Of a stretch of 20,624 nt of DNA, positions 12,940-20,564 are shown in pieces (position 1 is the stretch's first letter; each line of letters starts with the position of its first letter). Origin of the DNA: a virus; IMG/VR virus record IMGVR_UViG_3300004463_000166, positions 1 through 20,624 of that record; one strand, given 5' to 3'. Under the pieces are notes generated by a model. That model ran no database searches and was not told the origin of the DNA. It saw nothing but the letters and a program-made list of their open reading frames with translations. A program made the position numbers and the translations under genes.

Positions 12940-14064
12940 ATGGCAGGTCTGCTTTCAAATCTCCTTGGCCTTGGCGGGGATGCCGGGGGAAGTGGCCTCT
13001 CCGGCCTTCTGGGCCTCGGTGGCACGCAGGACAACACATCGGGGGCGATGGGCCTAGGCAATGCCACGGACAGCGGTGGCGGGCTTCTGGGGCTCAATCT
13101 GTTTGGTGTGGATAATTCCATGCGCCTGCCTCTTGCCCTGTCCATGCTAGGCGGGGGCTCCAATTCGGGAGCCTTTACCAATGCCGCCAATGTCATGGCG
13201 AACATGGGTCCGAAGCTGGAGGAAAAGCGCCTTGCACAGGCCCAGCAAAACAAGACGCTGGAATTCCTGAAGCAGAACAACCCCGAGCTTGCGCAGATGG
13301 TTGATGCCGGCATGCCTATCAACGAGGCGTGGAACCAGGTGCTCAAGAGCCGCCAGCCGGGGAGCGGCGTATCCTACAGCAAGACGCCCGTCTATGGCAC
13401 GGTCAACGGCAAGACCGTTCTCGGCACGGTTGGCGAAGACGGGTCGTTCAAGCAGATCGACACTGGTGAGTTCCAGCCGTCTAGCGGGTTCGACCGGGTA
13501 GACCTCGGCACCGGCATTGGCATCGTGGACCGGCGAACAGGCCAAGTAGTCCAGACCATTCCCAAAGACAATTACGGCGCGGCCTATGATACGGGCTCGG
13601 GCACAGCAGACGCCAAAACAGCCGCCACCGCGCGCGAAGAGTATGCTTCCATTGCGAGCAAGATGCCGGGGCTTCGTGCCGTTATCGGCAATCTGGACCA
13701 ACTGGCAGAAAAGGCCACCTACACACTCGCCGGGCAGGGGCTTGACGAGGGCATGAAGCAGTTGGGCATGGAGCCCCGAGAGGCTGCCGTCGCCCGAACC
13801 GAGTATATTGCCATTGTGGACAATCAGGTGCTGCCCCTGCTTCGCGACACGTTCGGCGCTCAGTTCACCGTCGAGGAAGGCAAGGCCCTTCGTGCCACCT
13901 TGGGCGATCCGAACAAGACGCCGGCACAGAAGCAGGCTGTTCTCAAGGCCTTCATCGAGCAGAAGGAGCGTGACCTTGCCGCGCTTGCTTCGCGTGCTGG
14001 CATGAACACCCCGGCAGCGCCCGGCGCTTCACCGGCTGCGGCTGACCCGCTGGGAATACGCTGA
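12940..14064 (+). CDS. putative internal virion (DNA-ejection) protein 2
   Basis: A 374-aa protein whose first ~55 residues are Gly/Leu-rich, with repeated LLGLGG motifs (NLLGLGGDAGG, GLLGLGGTQ, GLLGLNLFG), likely membrane-active or flexible. A helical, Gln-rich segment follows (KLEEKRLAQAQQNKTLEFLKQN). The C-terminal region includes 'EYIAIVDNQVLPLLRDTFGAQFT' and 'GKALRATLGDPNKTPAQKQA', a pattern I know from internal/ejection proteins of many podoviruses. The last ~20 residues are a disordered Pro/Ala tail. AGGAGGG stands five bases before the ATG. The stop overlaps the next gene by TGATG. Confidence 0.8.
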   Translation: MAGLLSNLLGLGGDAGGSGLSGLLGLGGTQDNTSGAMGLGNATDSGGGLLGLNLFGVDNSMRLPLALSMLGGGSNSGAFTNAANVMANMGPKLEEKRLAQAQQNKTLEFLKQNNPELAQMVDAGMPINEAWNQVLKSRQPGSGVSYSKTPVYGTVNGKTVLGTVGEDGSFKQIDTGEFQPSSGFDRVDLGTGIGIVDRRTGQVVQTIPKDNYGAAYDTGSGTADAKTAATAREEYASIASKMPGLRAVIGNLDQLAEKATYTLAGQGLDEGMKQLGMEPREAAVARTEYIAIVDNQVLPLLRDTFGAQFTVEEGKALRATLGDPNKTPAQKQAVLKAFIEQKERDLAALASRAGMNTPAAPGASPAAADPLGIR

Positions 14065-15716
14065 TGCCGACGATTGCGGAAATCCGTCAGCAGTATCCTC
14101 AATATGAGGACCTGACCGACGACCAACTGGCCGACAGCCTTCATAAGAAATTCTATGCCGACATGCCTCGGGAGGAATTTGACCTGAAGGTGGGATTAAC
14201 TCCTGAAAGCCAGCAGTCCAAGGACTTGCGCGGCGAACTGTCAGCGATGACCCTTAACCCCGCAAAGGCAGCCTACGACCGTCTGCCCGAATGGCAGAAG
14301 CCCATGGTCGCGGCAAAGGATATGCTTGACCTTGGCGTCAATGGCATCACCATGGGTTTCGGTGACAAGGCGGTGGCTGCCGCCCGCGCGCCATTCACGG
14401 ACAAGTCCTATGAGGAAGAACTGGCCGCACAACGGGGCCTGACGGAAGGCGCACGCAAGCGCGCCGGCAGCGCCGGGCTTGTTGCTGAGGTGGGAGGCGC
14501 TGTTGCTACTCCAATGGCACTCGCAAGCAAGGGCGCAACCTTGGCCGGGCGGCTTGGAACGGGAACGATGACCGGGGCCAAGGGGGTTGGCGCTCGCACG
14601 GCTCTAATGGGCGCTGAGGGCGCGGGCTATGGTGCGTTGACAGCGGCGGGGAACGACCAGGACATCAGCGATGGGGCGCTCGTTGGCCTTGCCGGTGGCG
14701 CTTTGGGCAACCTGGCAGGCGAAGCCATCTCGAAGGGCGTTCACAAAATCGCTGGCGCGTTCAACAAGAAGCCGCCTCGCATGAGCGCCGACGAACTGAA
14801 AACTGCGGCGCGTGACGCTTACAGGAAGGCCGAGGATGCCGGTGTGGTTTTCACCCCGACCGGCGTTCAACAGCTTCAGCGCGGGGTCGTGGACGATTTC
14901 ACGAATCATGGCTTTCATCCAACCAATGAGCCGGGGGCCGCGACTGTTCTCCGCGAACTTCAGAAGCTCGGCGGCAAGAATGTCACCTTGAAGGGCCTCG
15001 ATACGATCCGCAAGATCGCCTCCAACGGCTTCCAGCCCGGCAACCAGTCCAACAATGCTCTCCTGACCCAAGTCATCAAGCGCATTGACGACTTTGTGGA
15101 AAATGCCGGGGGCGATGCCGTCATGATGGGCAGCAACTCCAAGGCTGCCGGGAAAATCATAGCCGATGCCCGCAAGCTGTGGGGCAGGGCTTCCAAGCTG
15201 GAGCGGGCTGAATCTCTGGTGGACAAGGCAGGACGCCGGGCGTCCGCAACCGGCTCGGGCGGGAACGTCGAGAACGCGACCAGACAGAACATCAACCGCA
15301 TGATTGACAATCCCCGGCTGTCGCGCGGCATGACGCCAGATGAATTGGCCGCAGCCCGTAAGGCGGTTGAAGGCACGACGACACAAAATGTCTTGCGTCA
15401 GGTTGGGAAGCTATCCCCGCAGGGAAATGGGCTGATGCAGGCGCTTGGCGTCGGCGGTGTCATGGCTCAGCCTGCCATTGCGGTCCCGACCCTCATTGCA
15501 GGGTATGGGGCCAAGAAGGCTTCCGAAATACTGGCCCAGCGCTCGGTTGACGATCTGGTCAACCTTATCGCGCAGGGCGGGAATGCTTCATCGCTTAAAG
15601 TTGTGGAGAACGCGGTTCAGCTTCTTTCCAAGTCGAAACGCGAAGCCCTGTCCCGCGCCCTCATGGCTATCGGCGTCAACCGAACGGTCGGGGCTGGTAA
15701 TCAGCCAGCCTACTAG
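14064..15716 (+). CDS. putative internal virion (DNA-ejection) protein 3 with membrane-active segments
   Basis: A 550-aa protein. Residues 5-45 (AEIRQQYPQYEDLTDDQLAD, then KKFYADMPREEFDLKVGL) form the short N-terminal domain shared by many large phage internal proteins. A middle part, ~90-230, is Gly/Ala-rich and hydrophobic (GVNGITMGFGDKAVAAARAP, EVGGAVATPMALASKGA, GALVGLAGGALGNLAGEAIS), fitting insertion into the host envelope during ejection. A charged helical region follows, then another apolar stretch near 465-485 (GVGGVMAQPAIAVPTLIAGY). The final 129 bases are overlapped on the opposite strand by the membrane-protein gene of the moron cassette. Confidence 0.82.
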   Translation: MPTIAEIRQQYPQYEDLTDDQLADSLHKKFYADMPREEFDLKVGLTPESQQSKDLRGELSAMTLNPAKAAYDRLPEWQKPMVAAKDMLDLGVNGITMGFGDKAVAAARAPFTDKSYEEELAAQRGLTEGARKRAGSAGLVAEVGGAVATPMALASKGATLAGRLGTGTMTGAKGVGARTALMGAEGAGYGALTAAGNDQDISDGALVGLAGGALGNLAGEAISKGVHKIAGAFNKKPPRMSADELKTAARDAYRKAEDAGVVFTPTGVQQLQRGVVDDFTNHGFHPTNEPGAATVLRELQKLGGKNVTLKGLDTIRKIASNGFQPGNQSNNALLTQVIKRIDDFVENAGGDAVMMGSNSKAAGKIIADARKLWGRASKLERAESLVDKAGRRASATGSGGNVENATRQNINRMIDNPRLSRGMTPDELAAARKAVEGTTTQNVLRQVGKLSPQGNGLMQALGVGGVMAQPAIAVPTLIAGYGAKKASEILAQRSVDDLVNLIAQGGNASSLKVVENAVQLLSKSKREALSRALMAIGVNRTVGAGNQPAY

Positions 15717-15869
15717 TGCGAAGGTTCCCACAATACATGTCCAGTCGAGCCACCCATAATCGGACGGAAAGCCCTGCCTGCTGAAATACCCTGCAAAGGC
15801 GATGGACAGAAAGCCTATATAGAGCGTGAGCTTTGCCGGCCTGCCAACTTCGTTTTCGTCGTCTTTCAC
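15588..15869 (-). CDS. small two-helix membrane protein (moron)
   Basis: This 93-aa protein has two clear membrane segments, ~13-30 (KLTLYIGFLSIAFAGYF) and ~41-58 (LDWTCIVGTFALVGWLIT), joined by a short loop, with a charged N-terminus and a basic cytoplasm-type C-terminal tail. It starts at GTG 15869, with AAAGGA five bases upstream on the minus strand; this site and the hydropathy argue that it is real although it lies antisense to the end of the internal-protein gene. It follows the four-cysteine gene by 16 bases. Superinfection exclusion or another envelope role is possible; a holin is an alternative, though the position is unusual. I recognise no specific family. Confidence 0.7.
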   Translation of the reverse strand: MKDDENEVGRPAKLTLYIGFLSIAFAGYFSRQGFPSDYGWLDWTCIVGTFALVGWLITSPDRSVDADSHEGAGQGFAFRLGKKLNRVLHNFKR

Positions 15870-15885
15870 GAAATTCCTTTGAGCG

Positions 15886-16104
15886 TCAGTTGTTGATGGT
15901 CAAGGGGCACAGGCTGACCGAGCTAATATTAATCGCCACGGTTGATCCGAGGCAGTCATAATAGCAAATCTTGTTCATCCCCGATACGCGCTCGCCTGAT
16001 TTGAAGCACAGGACGGCAATCTGTGTTTCATCGGCCGGCTTCGACATCGGCGGTTCGGCTTGTGCGCCACCAAATAGAGCGGCCAATACGATTGCAGTTT
16101 TCAT
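15886..16104 (-). CDS. small secreted four-cysteine protein (moron)
   Basis: This 72-aa protein has a signal peptide (MKTAIVLAALFGGAQA, likely cleaved before E17). The mature part carries four cysteines, C33, C47, C51 and C66, in 'LCFKSGERVSGMNKICYYDC' and 'SVSLCPLTI', fit for two disulfides in the periplasm. From memory, small proteins with 'KxCYYDCLGS...ITxxxxxLCPL' recur in Rhizobiales genomes and prophages with no known function. GGAGGGAG lies eight bases before the ATG on the minus strand. A promoter sits about 30-55 bases upstream, so it can be transcribed alone, together with the membrane protein downstream. Confidence 0.82.
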   Translation of the reverse strand: MKTAIVLAALFGGAQAEPPMSKPADETQIAVLCFKSGERVSGMNKICYYDCLGSTVAINISSVSLCPLTINN

Positions 16105-16131
16105 TGGTTTTTCTCCCTCCGTCCCCTGAGT

Positions 16132-16160
16132 AATATGGCGGTGGAGGGCAGGGGCGTCAA
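16132..16160 (-). promoter_or_regulatory. sigma70-type promoter of the moron genes
   Basis: Read on the minus strand: TTGACG (16160-16155), a 17-base spacer, then CATATT (16137-16132). The -35 matches 5 of 6 and the -10 matches 4 of 6 consensus bases at the optimal spacing. Transcription would start near 16125, about 20 bases before the ATG at 16104. The -35 overlaps the stop codon of the upstream gene. Confidence 0.6.
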
Positions 16161-16564
16161 CGGCGGATCAGACTTGCGTCTATCTCATCATCAGTCAGCA
16201 GGTTGAAGCCGCGCTGGACGGCAGCCTCTATCTCGCCATCAACGTAGGCCGCGCGGGCTTTCGGGTCTTGTGTCGCGTCTGACCATTCGCCCCATTCCTG
16301 AATTACGGTGTCATCCGTCTCGATGCTGTGGATTACGTCATAGCAAAAGGCGCGGTGCTCGGGCAGGCAATCATGCGGGGAGCGGATGATGCCCACCTCT
16401 ACCATTTCGTCAATGGCCTGACCTGCTTGCATGCCTCCGACCACTCGCTGGACGCGATCTGTCGGATGGCTGGACGCATGGACGAAAGCGTTCACGTAGA
16501 CATCGCTGGCAGCAAAAGCCGGTGAAACGAGTGCGGCCAGAACAGCGGCCACTAAGATTCGCAT
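16157..16564 (-). CDS. secreted hypothetical protein (moron), 135 aa
   Basis: It has a signal peptide (MRILVAAVLAALVSPAFA, cleavage expected before A19). The mature protein is acidic and helical, with two cysteines (C67, C75, in HDCLPEHRAFCYDV) that could pair in the periplasm. A long C-terminal helix includes ARAAYVDGEIEAAVQRGFNLL. There is a faint likeness to Rap1a/Tai-type periplasmic proteins in the layout 'GG..AG.......C.P......', too weak to assign. It starts at ATG 16564 with a perfect AGGAGG site six bases upstream, read divergently from the hydrolase gene only 21 bases away. It is the first gene of the three-gene minus-strand cassette. Confidence 0.8.
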   Translation of the reverse strand: MRILVAAVLAALVSPAFAASDVYVNAFVHASSHPTDRVQRVVGGMQAGQAIDEMVEVGIIRSPHDCLPEHRAFCYDVIHSIETDDTVIQEWGEWSDATQDPKARAAYVDGEIEAAVQRGFNLLTDDEIDASLIRR

Positions 16565-16585: not shown

Positions 16586-19054
16586 ATGGCAAAAGCTACA
16601 TCGGTGGTCGATGTCATCCTTGGCGAAGCCGTTTCCGGCTCTCGGGATGACCGCTTCAACGATATGTTGGGGATTGCATCGGTCATTGACAATAGGGCCG
16701 ATCGCGGAAGGGTTACCCCCGAACAGGTTATTTCCAACACCAGGGAGTTCAACGCCTACAATAACAGCCTTCCCAAGGGCGTTGAAAGCTACCGCGATTT
16801 GGCCGAACAGGCATGGGCGCAGGTGCAGACCTATGGCCCGGTTCATAACGGCATGTTTTATGCGACGGAGACGGCCAAGGGCAACCTTCCAAAAGGCCTT
16901 GAGGAAGTCGCCCGCACGACAGGGCATGTCTACTACGACGATCCTCAGAACCGTTCCTTTGCCATTCAGGGCGGGCAATTCGTGGCCCCTACCGCCGAAC
17001 GGCAGGCGGTGGCAGAGGCTTTCAACCCAGTGGTTGATGTTGACTTGCCGGGGCTGGCCGTCCCTGAGGCCGCTGTATCGGCTTATGCGCCGAACATCAC
17101 GAACCCCGCACAATATGCCTTCTCTGACGTTCTTGCGCCCACTCCCGTCCAGACAACCAGCATCAATCCAAATGCCGCCCCGTCAATAGCGCCCGCACCT
17201 CCCGCCGTCCCGAGCGTCCCGTCCAGTGGCTTGGGCATGGCGGCGCTCGCTCCAAATGGCCTCATAGGCGAGCCCCAATTCAACATGGGAGACAACCGGT
17301 CTGCACCTCCCGGCGACGATATTCTCGGCATTGTCGATGGCGCGGTGAAAAGCGTCCTTGGCGATGAATGGACCGTGGACATCACCAGCGGGACCTATAA
17401 TCCCGGCCAGCCGCAATATGGGTCCGATCGCCACGATGACGGCAAAGCCATGGACTATTCCGTGGTTAACCCGTTTACGGGTGAAACTCTTTCCCGTGGC
17501 GTCGATGACGACAAGCTGAATGATATTGCCCGCGAAGCCGCCGCCCGTGGCGTCACAGGCATGGGTTACGGCAAGGGCTACATGGACCGTGACGGCACCA
17601 CGCGGTTTCACATGGACGTTGCCCGACCTGGTACGTGGGGAGCGGCGGGCAGGGCGGTCAATGTTGACCCGGTTGCCAATGCCGCATTCACGGCAGGTCT
17701 AGGCGGTGTCGGGGCGCTGCCAAACACCTATACCCCAGGTGGCATTCCTGAGCCTACCAGCCGCGACGAAGCCTATGCCAATATGCTGGCCGACCAAGCC
17801 GCGACGGTTCAAGGCTACAACGAGCTCGCAGCCGGTCTAGGCGCGGCGGGTATCCCGAATGTCGGCGGTTCATCCTCCACCTTTGCCGCCCCTGTCGGTG
17901 AAGTAGAGCGCGCATCGCTGCCGGATATTGCCCCGTCCGTGCCCGATGCGGTCCTGAGCGATGTCCCCGCCGGCTATGCGGACAGAATAACCGATCCGGG
18001 CTTTGACTACACCATTGCAACACCGGGAACACAGGTAGCATCTCTTGCGCCCGCGCCCGTGGAAAGTGTAGAACGTAGTAGCCTGCCAGACATCGCCCCG
18101 GCGGTCGCCACCCCTTCCGTTCCATCCCTTGCCGATGCCTATGGGCAGCTTGCTTCCACCATGGGGCAGGCCGGGATTACCGGATTGGCGGGGAACCCGA
18201 CGCCTAGCGTTCCTTCTTCAACCTTCGCCTCGCTGCCGAATGAACTGACAGCCCCGGCAAACACGTTCCAGAGTGTCACGAACCCAGCGCAAAATGTCAC
18301 GACTCCGGCTCCTGCGCCAACGATTTCAACGCCTTCCCCGGCTCAGAATGTCACAACTCCAGCGCCGAATGTCACAACTCCATCCGTACCGGCAACGCCT
18401 TCCGTAGCGGCTCCAAGCGTTCCGAGCGCCACGAAGACGGAAGACAAGGGCACCAGCCTCGGCTCCCGTCTCGGTCACGCTGCTATCGGTGGAATGATTG
18501 GCGGCTTGCCCGGTGCGCTTGTCGGTGGCCTGTTCGGCCCTGCTATTACAGGCACCGCAAAGGATGTGCTGGGCGGTGTCGGCAAGGGTCTTGGGCTTGA
18601 TGGTAAGGGCCTTGGCCTCGGCGACATCAGCCTCGGGGGCCTGTTCGACAGCAATGTGCAGATGCCTGAATCCACCTACAGCGTGGGCAACGGGCTGGAC
18701 GCAATCGACGGGGTGTTCAACGGCTCGTTCGGCGTAGGGGCAACGGCTACCTCAGTTGGAAATCCCAATGTGTCGTTCACCGATATTGGCAACGGCATGG
18801 TAGCGAAGACCAACAGTGAGTTCGGCACCACGTCGCTTGTCAATGCCTCGTCCTTTGGCTGGAATGGCGGCTCTCAGAAATCTTCCACGCCTTCCTCATC
18901 TGGCAATAGCTGGGGCCTTGGCGATGTGTTTGGTGGCTTGGGTGACTCCATAGCCGATGCGTTCTCTGGCTGGGGCGGGGAAAGCACGGCCAGCACTTCC
19001 GACGAAGACGATAGTTCCGACAGCTACGGCTACGGCGAGTTCTCGCCAACCTAG
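16586..19054 (+). CDS. virion cell-wall hydrolase: SleB-like plus M15-like peptidase plus glycine-zipper region
   Basis: An 822-aa modular protein. Residues ~7-135 resemble a SleB/CwlJ-type hydrolase: catalytic-type E14 in VILGEAVSG, IASVIDNRADRGRVTPEQVI, REFNAYN and TGHVYYDD. Residues ~241-352 resemble an M15-like metallopeptidase, with H283 and D290 in RHDDGKAMDY and H342 and D344 in RFHMDV as zinc or catalytic ligands, then WG. Between and after these lie Pro/Ala/Val-rich linkers, including VER.SLPDIAP twice (440-449, 495-505) and NVTTPAP repeats. Residues ~626-670 are a glycine zipper (HAAIGGMIGGLPGALVGGLF). The C-terminus is Gly/Ser-rich and acidic. It probably opens peptidoglycan and perhaps forms a channel during ejection. 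Its position after the internal proteins, rather than in a lysis cassette, supports a virion role. Confidence 0.82.
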   Translation: MAKATSVVDVILGEAVSGSRDDRFNDMLGIASVIDNRADRGRVTPEQVISNTREFNAYNNSLPKGVESYRDLAEQAWAQVQTYGPVHNGMFYATETAKGNLPKGLEEVARTTGHVYYDDPQNRSFAIQGGQFVAPTAERQAVAEAFNPVVDVDLPGLAVPEAAVSAYAPNITNPAQYAFSDVLAPTPVQTTSINPNAAPSIAPAPPAVPSVPSSGLGMAALAPNGLIGEPQFNMGDNRSAPPGDDILGIVDGAVKSVLGDEWTVDITSGTYNPGQPQYGSDRHDDGKAMDYSVVNPFTGETLSRGVDDDKLNDIAREAAARGVTGMGYGKGYMDRDGTTRFHMDVARPGTWGAAGRAVNVDPVANAAFTAGLGGVGALPNTYTPGGIPEPTSRDEAYANMLADQAATVQGYNELAAGLGAAGIPNVGGSSSTFAAPVGEVERASLPDIAPSVPDAVLSDVPAGYADRITDPGFDYTIATPGTQVASLAPAPVESVERSSLPDIAPAVATPSVPSLADAYGQLASTMGQAGITGLAGNPTPSVPSSTFASLPNELTAPANTFQSVTNPAQNVTTPAPAPTISTPSPAQNVTTPAPNVTTPSVPATPSVAAPSVPSATKTEDKGTSLGSRLGHAAIGGMIGGLPGALVGGLFGPAITGTAKDVLGGVGKGLGLDGKGLGLGDISLGGLFDSNVQMPESTYSVGNGLDAIDGVFNGSFGVGATATSVGNPNVSFTDIGNGMVAKTNSEFGTTSLVNASSFGWNGGSQKSSTPSSSGNSWGLGDVFGGLGDSIADAFSGWGGESTASTSDEDDSSDSYGYGEFSPT
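18293..18381 (+). repeat. short direct repeats coding for Asn-Val-Thr-Thr-Pro units
   Basis: AATGTCACRACTCC occurs three times (18293-18306, 18347-18360, 18368-18381) inside a Thr/Pro/Ala/Val-rich linker of the hydrolase. The linker between the enzymatic domains and the glycine zipper appears to grow and shrink by such units. Confidence 0.75.
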
Positions 19055-19119: not shown

Positions 19120-20169
19120 ATGGCGAAACCTAAGGTCACCGACTGGTCCGCGACTGCGGCCGACAACGAAGATATTGGCGGCATCGACATTCGAGGGACA
19201 GCCAAACCCTCCAATATCGACAACGCCGAACGCGAAATGATGGCGCAGATTGCCAAGGTCAACGCGGGCACCGATCCTGTAGCGGATACATGGTCATTCG
19301 CGGACCCCGCCGACCTGACGAAGATTGTCCGTCTCGATGCGGGCAACATCACGGCGGGCAACACCCGCGTCCTGACAATGGCGGATGAGGATGTCGACCT
19401 TGGCGATGTTGTTTCCAACATCAATGCCGTGCTTCCGGGCTATCTGTACGGCCTCACCCTCTACCACGCGACCGACACCGATCACGACATCCAGGTGGGG
19501 GCTGGCACAGCAGCAAGCGACGATGTTGACCCGGTGCTGATGCGTTTGCCTTTTCCAATAACGAAGCGCTTTGATGCGGAGTTTGCGGAAGGCCACAACA
19601 GCGGAGGAATGCGGGCGGGTAATTCTCTCCCGGCGAACGGGACCATTCACATCTTCCTCATTATGAAGGCTGATGGAACGACCGACGTCATCGCTTGCAA
19701 CCATGCCACGGCGGGTATTGACCCACCACCGCCCGGAGATTTCATCTACAAGCGTCGGATCGGTTCGCTTCGTACAGACGCCAGCGCCAATATTTATGGC
19801 TTCATCCAGACCGGCGACAGGTTTATTTATAAATCCCCAATCCTTGACGTTTCGTCTTCGTCACAAGCGACGACACCTTCTCTTAGAAGTTTGAGCATTC
19901 CGCATGGGTTGAAAATGTCAGCGATACTTAGCACGTTAAGTTTCGCATCATTTGCGGGTTTCGCAGTATATCGAGACCCGGATTCGACCGGCAAGACTGC
20001 ATCAAATTCCAATTTTGACGTATACACCGATGCGAACGAATATAGATCAGAGAGGATGGAAGTTATAACGAACACATCTGGGCAAATCTCTACGTCCCTG
20101 AATGCCACCGGGGGGACAATGAGTATTATCAACATTGGCTATATCGACACGCGCGGGAGGCTCGGCTGA
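19120..20169 (+). CDS. tail fibre / receptor-binding protein
   Basis: A 349-aa protein. Its N-terminus 'DWSATAADNEDIGGIDIRGT' plus 'NIDNAEREMMAQIAKVNAG' is the short virion-attachment module found on many phage fibres ('W..TA..N..I.G......NIN...R'). The centre has beta-rich segments (GYLYGLTLYHATDTDHDIQV, GTIHIFLIMKADGTTDVIA). From about residue 228 on (bases 19800-20110) the sequence becomes Ser/Thr-rich, and base composition falls to 45% GC over 19861-20100 (counted by hand), against 60% in 19321-19380. This suggests a recently exchanged receptor-binding half. No enzymatic (depolymerase) motif is seen. GAGG precedes the ATG; the stop overlaps the next ATG by one base. Confidence 0.82.
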   Translation: MAKPKVTDWSATAADNEDIGGIDIRGTAKPSNIDNAEREMMAQIAKVNAGTDPVADTWSFADPADLTKIVRLDAGNITAGNTRVLTMADEDVDLGDVVSNINAVLPGYLYGLTLYHATDTDHDIQVGAGTAASDDVDPVLMRLPFPITKRFDAEFAEGHNSGGMRAGNSLPANGTIHIFLIMKADGTTDVIACNHATAGIDPPPPGDFIYKRRIGSLRTDASANIYGFIQTGDRFIYKSPILDVSSSSQATTPSLRSLSIPHGLKMSAILSTLSFASFAGFAVYRDPDSTGKTASNSNFDVYTDANEYRSERMEVITNTSGQISTSLNATGGTMSIINIGYIDTRGRLG

Positions 20170-20564
20170 TGTTTGTACAACGTGAGAATGGCAAGGTCGT
20201 TGGCCTCTTTGAACTGCCGCAGCCGGGTTATGCCGAGGAAGAGATTGCGGCAGATCATGCTGATGTGGTGGCCTTTCTGGTCCCGGTCCCTACGTCCGTC
20301 TCCCGCCGCCAGCTTCTCCTAGCCTTGGCTCAGATGGGCCTCATCACGGGCGAGGAAGCGGTCGCCTCGAATGTGGCCGTTCCGGCCGGCGTTCAAGCCG
20401 TGCTCGACAACATGGAGCCGGCCGAGAAGCAGACGGCGGAAATCACATGGCTGAACTTCACGGAAGCCCTCCGCAATGACCCGCTCGTGGCTGCACTGGC
20501 GCAGGCCAACGGCATGACATCGGCCGAGGTTGACGACTTCTTCCGGCTCGCCGCCAGCCTCTAG
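20169..20564 (+). CDS. tail fibre assembly-like small protein
   Basis: A 131-aa protein starting at the fibre stop (TGATG). Its layout is one I remember from small proteins following fibre genes in alphaproteobacterial phages: 'GYAEEEIAADHADVVAFL', 'SVSRRQLLLALAQMGLITGEEAVA', a conserved-looking 'WLNFTEALRNDPLVAALA' and a closing helix 'MTSAEVDDFFRLAASL'. It probably acts as a fibre-folding chaperone or minor fibre component; this is inferred from position. It returns to the GC-rich codon use of the rest of the operon. The 60 bases after it hold no gene, only short hairpins. Confidence 0.75.
   Translation: MFVQRENGKVVGLFELPQPGYAEEEIAADHADVVAFLVPVPTSVSRRQLLLALAQMGLITGEEAVASNVAVPAGVQAVLDNMEPAEKQTAEITWLNFTEALRNDPLVAALAQANGMTSAEVDDFFRLAASL

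Follow-up and report, generated by a model that had tools for sequence, protein, structure and literature searches.

The window analysed, i.e. the whole stretch of 20,624 bases of an IMG/VR virus record, is a fragment of a phage genome with the terminase-to-tail gene order of P22-related podoviruses of Alphaproteobacteria. Among the isolates recovered, the Rhizobium phages RHph_I1_23 and RHph_N3_2 are the closest (portal 46% identical) and both have integrase genes, and the tail tube protein is shared at 44-51% with prophage-like loci in genomes of Mesorhizobium, Ensifer, Aquamicrobium and Allorhizobium. Neither an integrase nor a repressor gene was found within the 20,624 bases; the phage was presumably temperate. 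Three ORFs on the minus strand, m93, m72 and m135 (Table 1), separate the last gene for an ejection protein from a hydrolase gene of the SleB type. The earlier note had placed three minus-strand genes at 15588-16564, and these ORFs were indeed recovered there. Its description of the products, two proteins with a signal peptide and a two-helix membrane protein, agrees with the outcome of hydropathy and motif scripts, which were used here in place of a trained predictor. The Hydrolase_2 match of the right-hand flanking gene (E 0.023) is below the curated cut-off, and the gene is syntenic with the annotated SleB-like genes of RHph_I1_23 and RHph_N3_2.

Table 1. The inverted segment and its flanks (window coordinates)
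Feature	Position	Strand	Remarks
g550, last internal/ejection protein gene (P22 gene 16 position)	14064..15716	+	left flank
m93	15588..15869	-	93 aa, GTG start, AAAGGA upstream, two predicted TM helices
m72	15886..16104	-	predicted exported protein of 72 aa, signal peptide and 4-Cys core
sigma-70-like match TTGACG-N17-CATATT, between m135 and m72	16132..16160	-	weak, putative
m135	16157..16564	-	predicted exported protein of 135 aa, signal peptide, two Cys in mature part
SleB-type (Hydrolase_2) peptidoglycan hydrolase gene, 822 aa	16586..19054	+	right flank

All three ORFs are preceded by a Shine-Dalgarno sequence, which is strong for m72 (GGAGG) and m135 (AGGAGG). The codon scores per codon were 0.12 for m93, 0.04 for m72 and 0.12 for m135, compared to 0.07-0.36 for the plus-strand genes and a mean of -0.16 (maximum 0.12) for 52 other antisense ORFs; m93 and m135 thus equal or exceed the best of the latter and m72 lies in the upper tail. 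On this basis m93 and m135 are supported as coding and m72 less clearly so, although coding of m72 is backed by the existence of homologs with a conserved core. The low GC content that was noted before (52.5% over 15721-16080) is exact, but it does not extend over the whole cassette (55.9%): it is confined to the m72/m93 part, whereas m135 (58.5%) has the GC content of the phage itself (59.3% for the window). A promoter proper to the cassette, as had been claimed, could not be established. Three sigma-70-like matches were present in 2.5 kb, where 1.1 +/- 0.9 were expected, and none of them is located just upstream of m135. The match within the cassette comes after m135 in the direction of reading, and m72 and m93 are the only genes that it could serve. 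Given that the divergent starts of m135 and the hydrolase gene are 21 bp apart, any promoter of m135 must be located within the hydrolase gene. A sequence scan revealed no terminator for the inverted segment. At the other end, 129 bp (15588-15716) are coding on both strands, the C-terminus of m93 being antisense to that of g550. Within this two-strand stretch the sequence 'FRLGKKLNRxLH' is kept in four of the loci surveyed below (L037, L039, L074 and L085).

The core of m72 reads 'C-x3-GE-x2-SGMNKICYYDC-x-GS...LCP' and the mature part contains four cysteines. Homologs were found in five viral contigs, together forming a small phage family with four cysteines, and a search of 397 genomes of the order yielded a single match, in the prophage of an isolate (L001). 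The AlphaFold2 model of m72 (mean pLDDT 77, core above 90) shows a small beta fold without a Foldseek match in the PDB, and sequence searches of the PDB with m72 and m135 gave no match either. For m135 no relatives were recovered among the annotated phages, the viral contigs or the 397 genomes, which makes it an orphan; its structure model is poor and unusable for comparison. A lipobox is absent from both proteins. In line with the earlier statement that the three products have no recognised function, Pfam, NCBIfam, PHROG and PADLOC returned nothing significant for m93, m72 or m135. In another locus (L002, 5887-6324, plus strand) the four-cysteine core of m72 is tandemly duplicated within one exported protein.

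To place the segment among its relatives, the tail-tube gene was used as bait, which gave 99 loci, 80 being kept of 548 tail-tube loci. The ejection-protein homolog was located by profile in about 70 loci. The junction downstream of it was readable in 71 and, after removal of redundancy, 63 were left. An inverted ORF was scored when it had at least 40 amino acids, a hydrophobic segment and an end near the stop of the ejection gene. We found that 55 of the 63 non-redundant relatives have an inverted ORF with one or two TM segments that abuts or overlaps this stop, against 5.7 of 63 expected by chance when the downstream 300 nt are shuffled. The same kind of ORF occurs at 203 of 926 other plus-strand gene ends of these loci, and at 50 of 253 when only ends with a gap are taken (20-22%). 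Including four borderline cases, three just below the hydropathy cut (L026, L074, L121) and one just beyond the position cut (L085), the total amounts to 59 of 63 (about 94%), the exceptions being L041, L048, L053 and L054.

Most of these junction ORFs are unannotated. In RHph_I1_23 and RHph_N3_2 the junction measures 196 and 180 bp, respectively, and has no annotated gene, yet it contains an inverted ORF with TM segments, which has 57 aa in the former (L027, 13390-13563) and 61 aa in the latter (L028, 13011-13196). An inverted gene of 58 aa is annotated at the junction of RHEph18 and a TM gene of 71 aa (phiGT1_20) at that of phiGT1. The junctions of EBPR podovirus 2 and Sulfitobacter phage NYA-2014a carry an annotated inverted lipoprotein gene and, in addition, an unannotated inverted TM ORF. 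Loci with the TM gene and no exported neighbour are common. In Ochrobactrum phage OH, which has no integrase among its annotated genes, the m93-like ORF reads with the replication genes, as would be expected of an early exclusion gene. At the junction of one locus (L107) an inverted gene for a small protein (16600-16896, minus strand) lies beside the TM gene; its product may be Cas2/SinR-like.

Within six subfamilies of the TM protein the pN/pS ratio had a median of 0.29 and a maximum of 0.57 over 60 pairs, counting only codons outside the overlap and with the restriction that the pairs share members and are not independent. This shows that the TM families are real proteins under purifying selection at the family level. 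For m93 itself, the ratios to the nearest relatives (0.53 and 0.67) are saturated, the relatives being too distant for this test. The homology of m93 amounts to 50% identity over 50 aa with L074 and 36% over 95 aa with a Mesorhizobium prophage (L037), and part of this similarity falls where g550 constrains the sequence as well. By single linkage the m93 family spans 31 loci, and its profile matches that of the 'IDHDPxEPPRD' subfamily (hhalign E 2.8e-5, probability 74%). None of seven survey proteins that were scanned had a significant PHROG match. The shuffles, the other gene ends and the pN/pS ratios led us to reject chance antisense frames as an explanation of the TM ORFs. Judged by sequence and position, m93 is a member of a resident, positionally conserved family of inverted TM genes convergent with the ejection gene, lytic phages included. 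The GenBank note of phiGT1_20 (MT584811) already mentions small inverted frames at this place, for close relatives only and with no function read from it, and word searches of the phiGT1 paper (PMC10386132) returned no discussion of them. What is new beyond the former is the reach into phages and prophages of Rhizobiales, the selection and the link to exported cargo.

The genes upstream of the TM gene behave differently. Under strict scoring, an inverted ORF for an exported protein was present in 14 of 61 gaps, where 0.03 would be expected from shuffles, and the plus strand gave 0. Looser inspection raises the number of such loci to about two dozen. The slot is filled by more than a dozen exported families without relation to one another, lipoproteins among them in some relatives. 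Several TM subfamilies occur at the site and the exported families reassort against the TM gene. Among the members of the m93 subfamily, L037 has a lipoprotein as partner, L074 and L085 have a member of a protein family that we refer to as SP-A, the window has m72 plus m135, and L130 has none. This variety of partners implies that the TM gene is resident and that the exported genes are exchanged. The classification of the segment as a moron therefore holds in part: the site corresponds to a known moron site of P22-like phages and its exported genes, present in some relatives only, are exchanged, but the TM gene is resident and does not belong to one acquired three-gene cassette. The junction survey led us to discard the idea that all three genes make up one recent unit.

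In many loci the plus-strand gene on the right encodes a peptidoglycan hydrolase, the type of which, as judged by sequence motifs, varies. SP-A ('C..L.GKPIS..ES..QC..L...GKELKANGYCW....EW.PCK') was found in the gap after the ejection gene in L056, L059, L062, L064, L074, L085, L091, L097 and L112; the copy in L091 was found by eye, and no PHROG was obtained for the member in L112. It accompanies every long 'NNNPGN' hydrolase (8 of 8 loci), although the TM genes of these loci belong to four subfamilies, and it is present in one further locus. The naive p value of the association is 1e-7, which ignores shared descent, five of the eight loci being close relatives. The presence of SP-A in all 'NNNPGN' loci would fit a role matched to the hydrolase, like that of Spackle (see below). 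Given that adjacent divergent genes travel together, linkage alone could yield the pairing, and we regard it as a lead rather than as proof.

The arrangement resembles that of the sieA site of phage P22, in which gene 16 (plus) is followed by sieA, orf59a and mnt (all minus) and the tailspike gene 9 (plus). The 'ant moron' with sieA or immI is the moron site of P22-like phages (PMC2629481). When the gene order of the window was compared with that of P22, RHph_I1_23, RHph_N3_2 and phiGT1, inverted genes were found between the last ejection gene and a tail gene. Shared with the P22 site are a small protein, predicted for the inner membrane in the case of m93, whose gene is convergent with gene 16 or its equivalent, and further inverted genes upstream, and among the relatives of the window the content of the site is variable as well. 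The TM protein phiGT1_20 is likewise inverted and placed at the same junction. Unlike the P22 site, the one described here has exported-protein cargo and lacks arc, ant and mnt. Furthermore, SieA, an inner-membrane protein that keeps related phages from injecting their DNA, has three TM helices and 162-164 aa, whereas m93 has 93 aa and two hydrophobic segments. Homology of the m93 family to SieA was rejected (hhalign against P22 SieA: probability 0.8%, E 0.07). The m93 family may act like SieA, yet by sequence it stands outside the SieA family. The best explanation of the site is that it would correspond, in phages of Alphaproteobacteria, to the sieA site of P22, as a locus with a fixed place between the ejection and the tail/hydrolase genes that is read in the direction opposite to the late operon.

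Phage T4 provides a second comparison. Its Imm is a small membrane protein. Spackle is a periplasmic disulfide protein of 75 aa that inhibits the tail lysozyme and, with Imm, confers exclusion (PMC7677548). The similarity lies in the small size of m72 and m135, their signal peptides and their four and two cysteines, respectively, which could form disulfides at the predicted location; sequence similarity was not detected, the phage type is another one and exclusion is only proposed for the genes of the window. Moreover, Spackle is alpha-helical and the m72 model is a beta fold without Foldseek match. Lipoprotein exclusion factors such as Ltp of TP-J34 and Cor of phi80/N15 are also small exported phage proteins that block related phages, but m72 and m135 lack a lipobox and no homology was detected.

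Considering the position, the orientation, the membrane/periplasm anatomy, the conservation in temperate and lytic phages and the turnover of the cargo, superinfection exclusion is the most likely function of the locus, with a probability of around 0.5; the assignment is based on position and anatomy and not on homology to SieA. The lack of sequence similarity to SieA, the orphan status and poor model of m135, and the fact that m93 has no PADLOC, Pfam, NCBIfam or PHROG family count against it. Made in a lysogen or early in infection, m93 would reside in the inner membrane and, when a related podovirus arrives, interfere with the building of its trans-envelope conduit or with the insertion of that conduit into the membrane. 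In the periplasm, m72 and m135 might act on the incoming conduit or its peptidoglycan hydrolase, comparable to Imm and Spackle of T4, the role of m135 being suggested by its place alone. More specifically, and only tentatively, the podoviruses of the phiGT1/Rhizobium type could possess an undescribed two-tier exclusion locus, in which an inverted inner-membrane protein is matched to the conduit and periplasmic inhibitors are matched to, and exchanged with, the virion hydrolase.

The earlier note had left the choice between lysogenic conversion and superinfection exclusion. The latter part is retained as the best explanation, and the former, taken strictly, is unlikely. A conversion moron, with exported proteins that alter the host envelope (surface, stress resistance or immunity to competitors) to the advantage of the lysogen and have no action on the entry of incoming phage DNA, would fit the turnover of unrelated exported proteins, the AT-richer DNA of m72/m93 and the temperate nature of the closest relatives. 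However, the TM gene is conserved, the site is flanked by the ejection and hydrolase genes, and the TM gene is also present in lytic phages, namely phiGT1 and Ochrobactrum phage OH, which argues against strict conversion. The published description of phiGT1 calls it lytic (PMC10386132).

The presence of the TM gene in lytic phages, and the resemblance of small TM plus exported protein or lipoprotein pairs to spanin or holin/antiholin sets, could also point to a late-gene or lysis accessory (antiholin-like, spanin-like or a factor in conduit timing) with the exported proteins as periplasmic lysis modulators. We consider this quite improbable, as the genes are oriented against the late operon, loci with the TM gene alone are frequent, and RHph_I1_23, RHph_N3_2 and phiGT1 have annotated endolysin/holin genes elsewhere. 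The convergent overlap with g550 is what would be expected if the segment acted mainly at the RNA level, by antisense transcription or as an RNA element, to adjust late read-through into the hydrolase and tail genes; such a role has been suggested for the ant moron of P22, and the proteins would then be a secondary matter. This is still more doubtful, since the TM family is under purifying selection at the protein level, signal peptides and Shine-Dalgarno sites are present, and the inverted segment has no Rfam match and folds in an ordinary way. Finally, minor virion or assembly factors would suit the fact that nearly all relatives keep the position within the virion operon, but this is the least probable explanation as the strand is opposite to that of all virion genes, the exported partners are quickly replaced and the genes are absent or replaced in a few relatives.

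A fixed and largely unannotated family at the equivalent site in phages and prophages of Rhizobium, Mesorhizobium, Sulfitobacter and related genera offers many natural test cases. Position alone may suffice to find new exclusion proteins at this site, and possibly inhibitors of virion hydrolases; small inverted genes with GTG or TTG starts within virion operons are missed by annotation.

Some further observations concern the surroundings of the locus. A second inverted small gene is located just upstream of the endolysin gene in RHph_I1_23 (L027, 17432-17605, minus strand) and RHph_N3_2 (L028, 16589-16849, minus strand), and the two products share 'RR-x-PG-x-WEY' near the C-terminus. Within the 822-aa hydrolase of the window, the SleB part is followed (17303-17665) by a motif 'RHDDGKAMDYS...FHMDV' that resembles M15 peptidases; a sequence search of the PDB gave no confirmation of such a domain. 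Further downstream, the GC content falls to about 49-53% (19501-20250) within the gene at 19120-20169. The first 44 residues encoded by this gene are more than 50% identical to the product of the gene that follows the hydrolase gene in the RHph phages and the remainder does not match that product, so that it looks like a domain-swapped tail gene.
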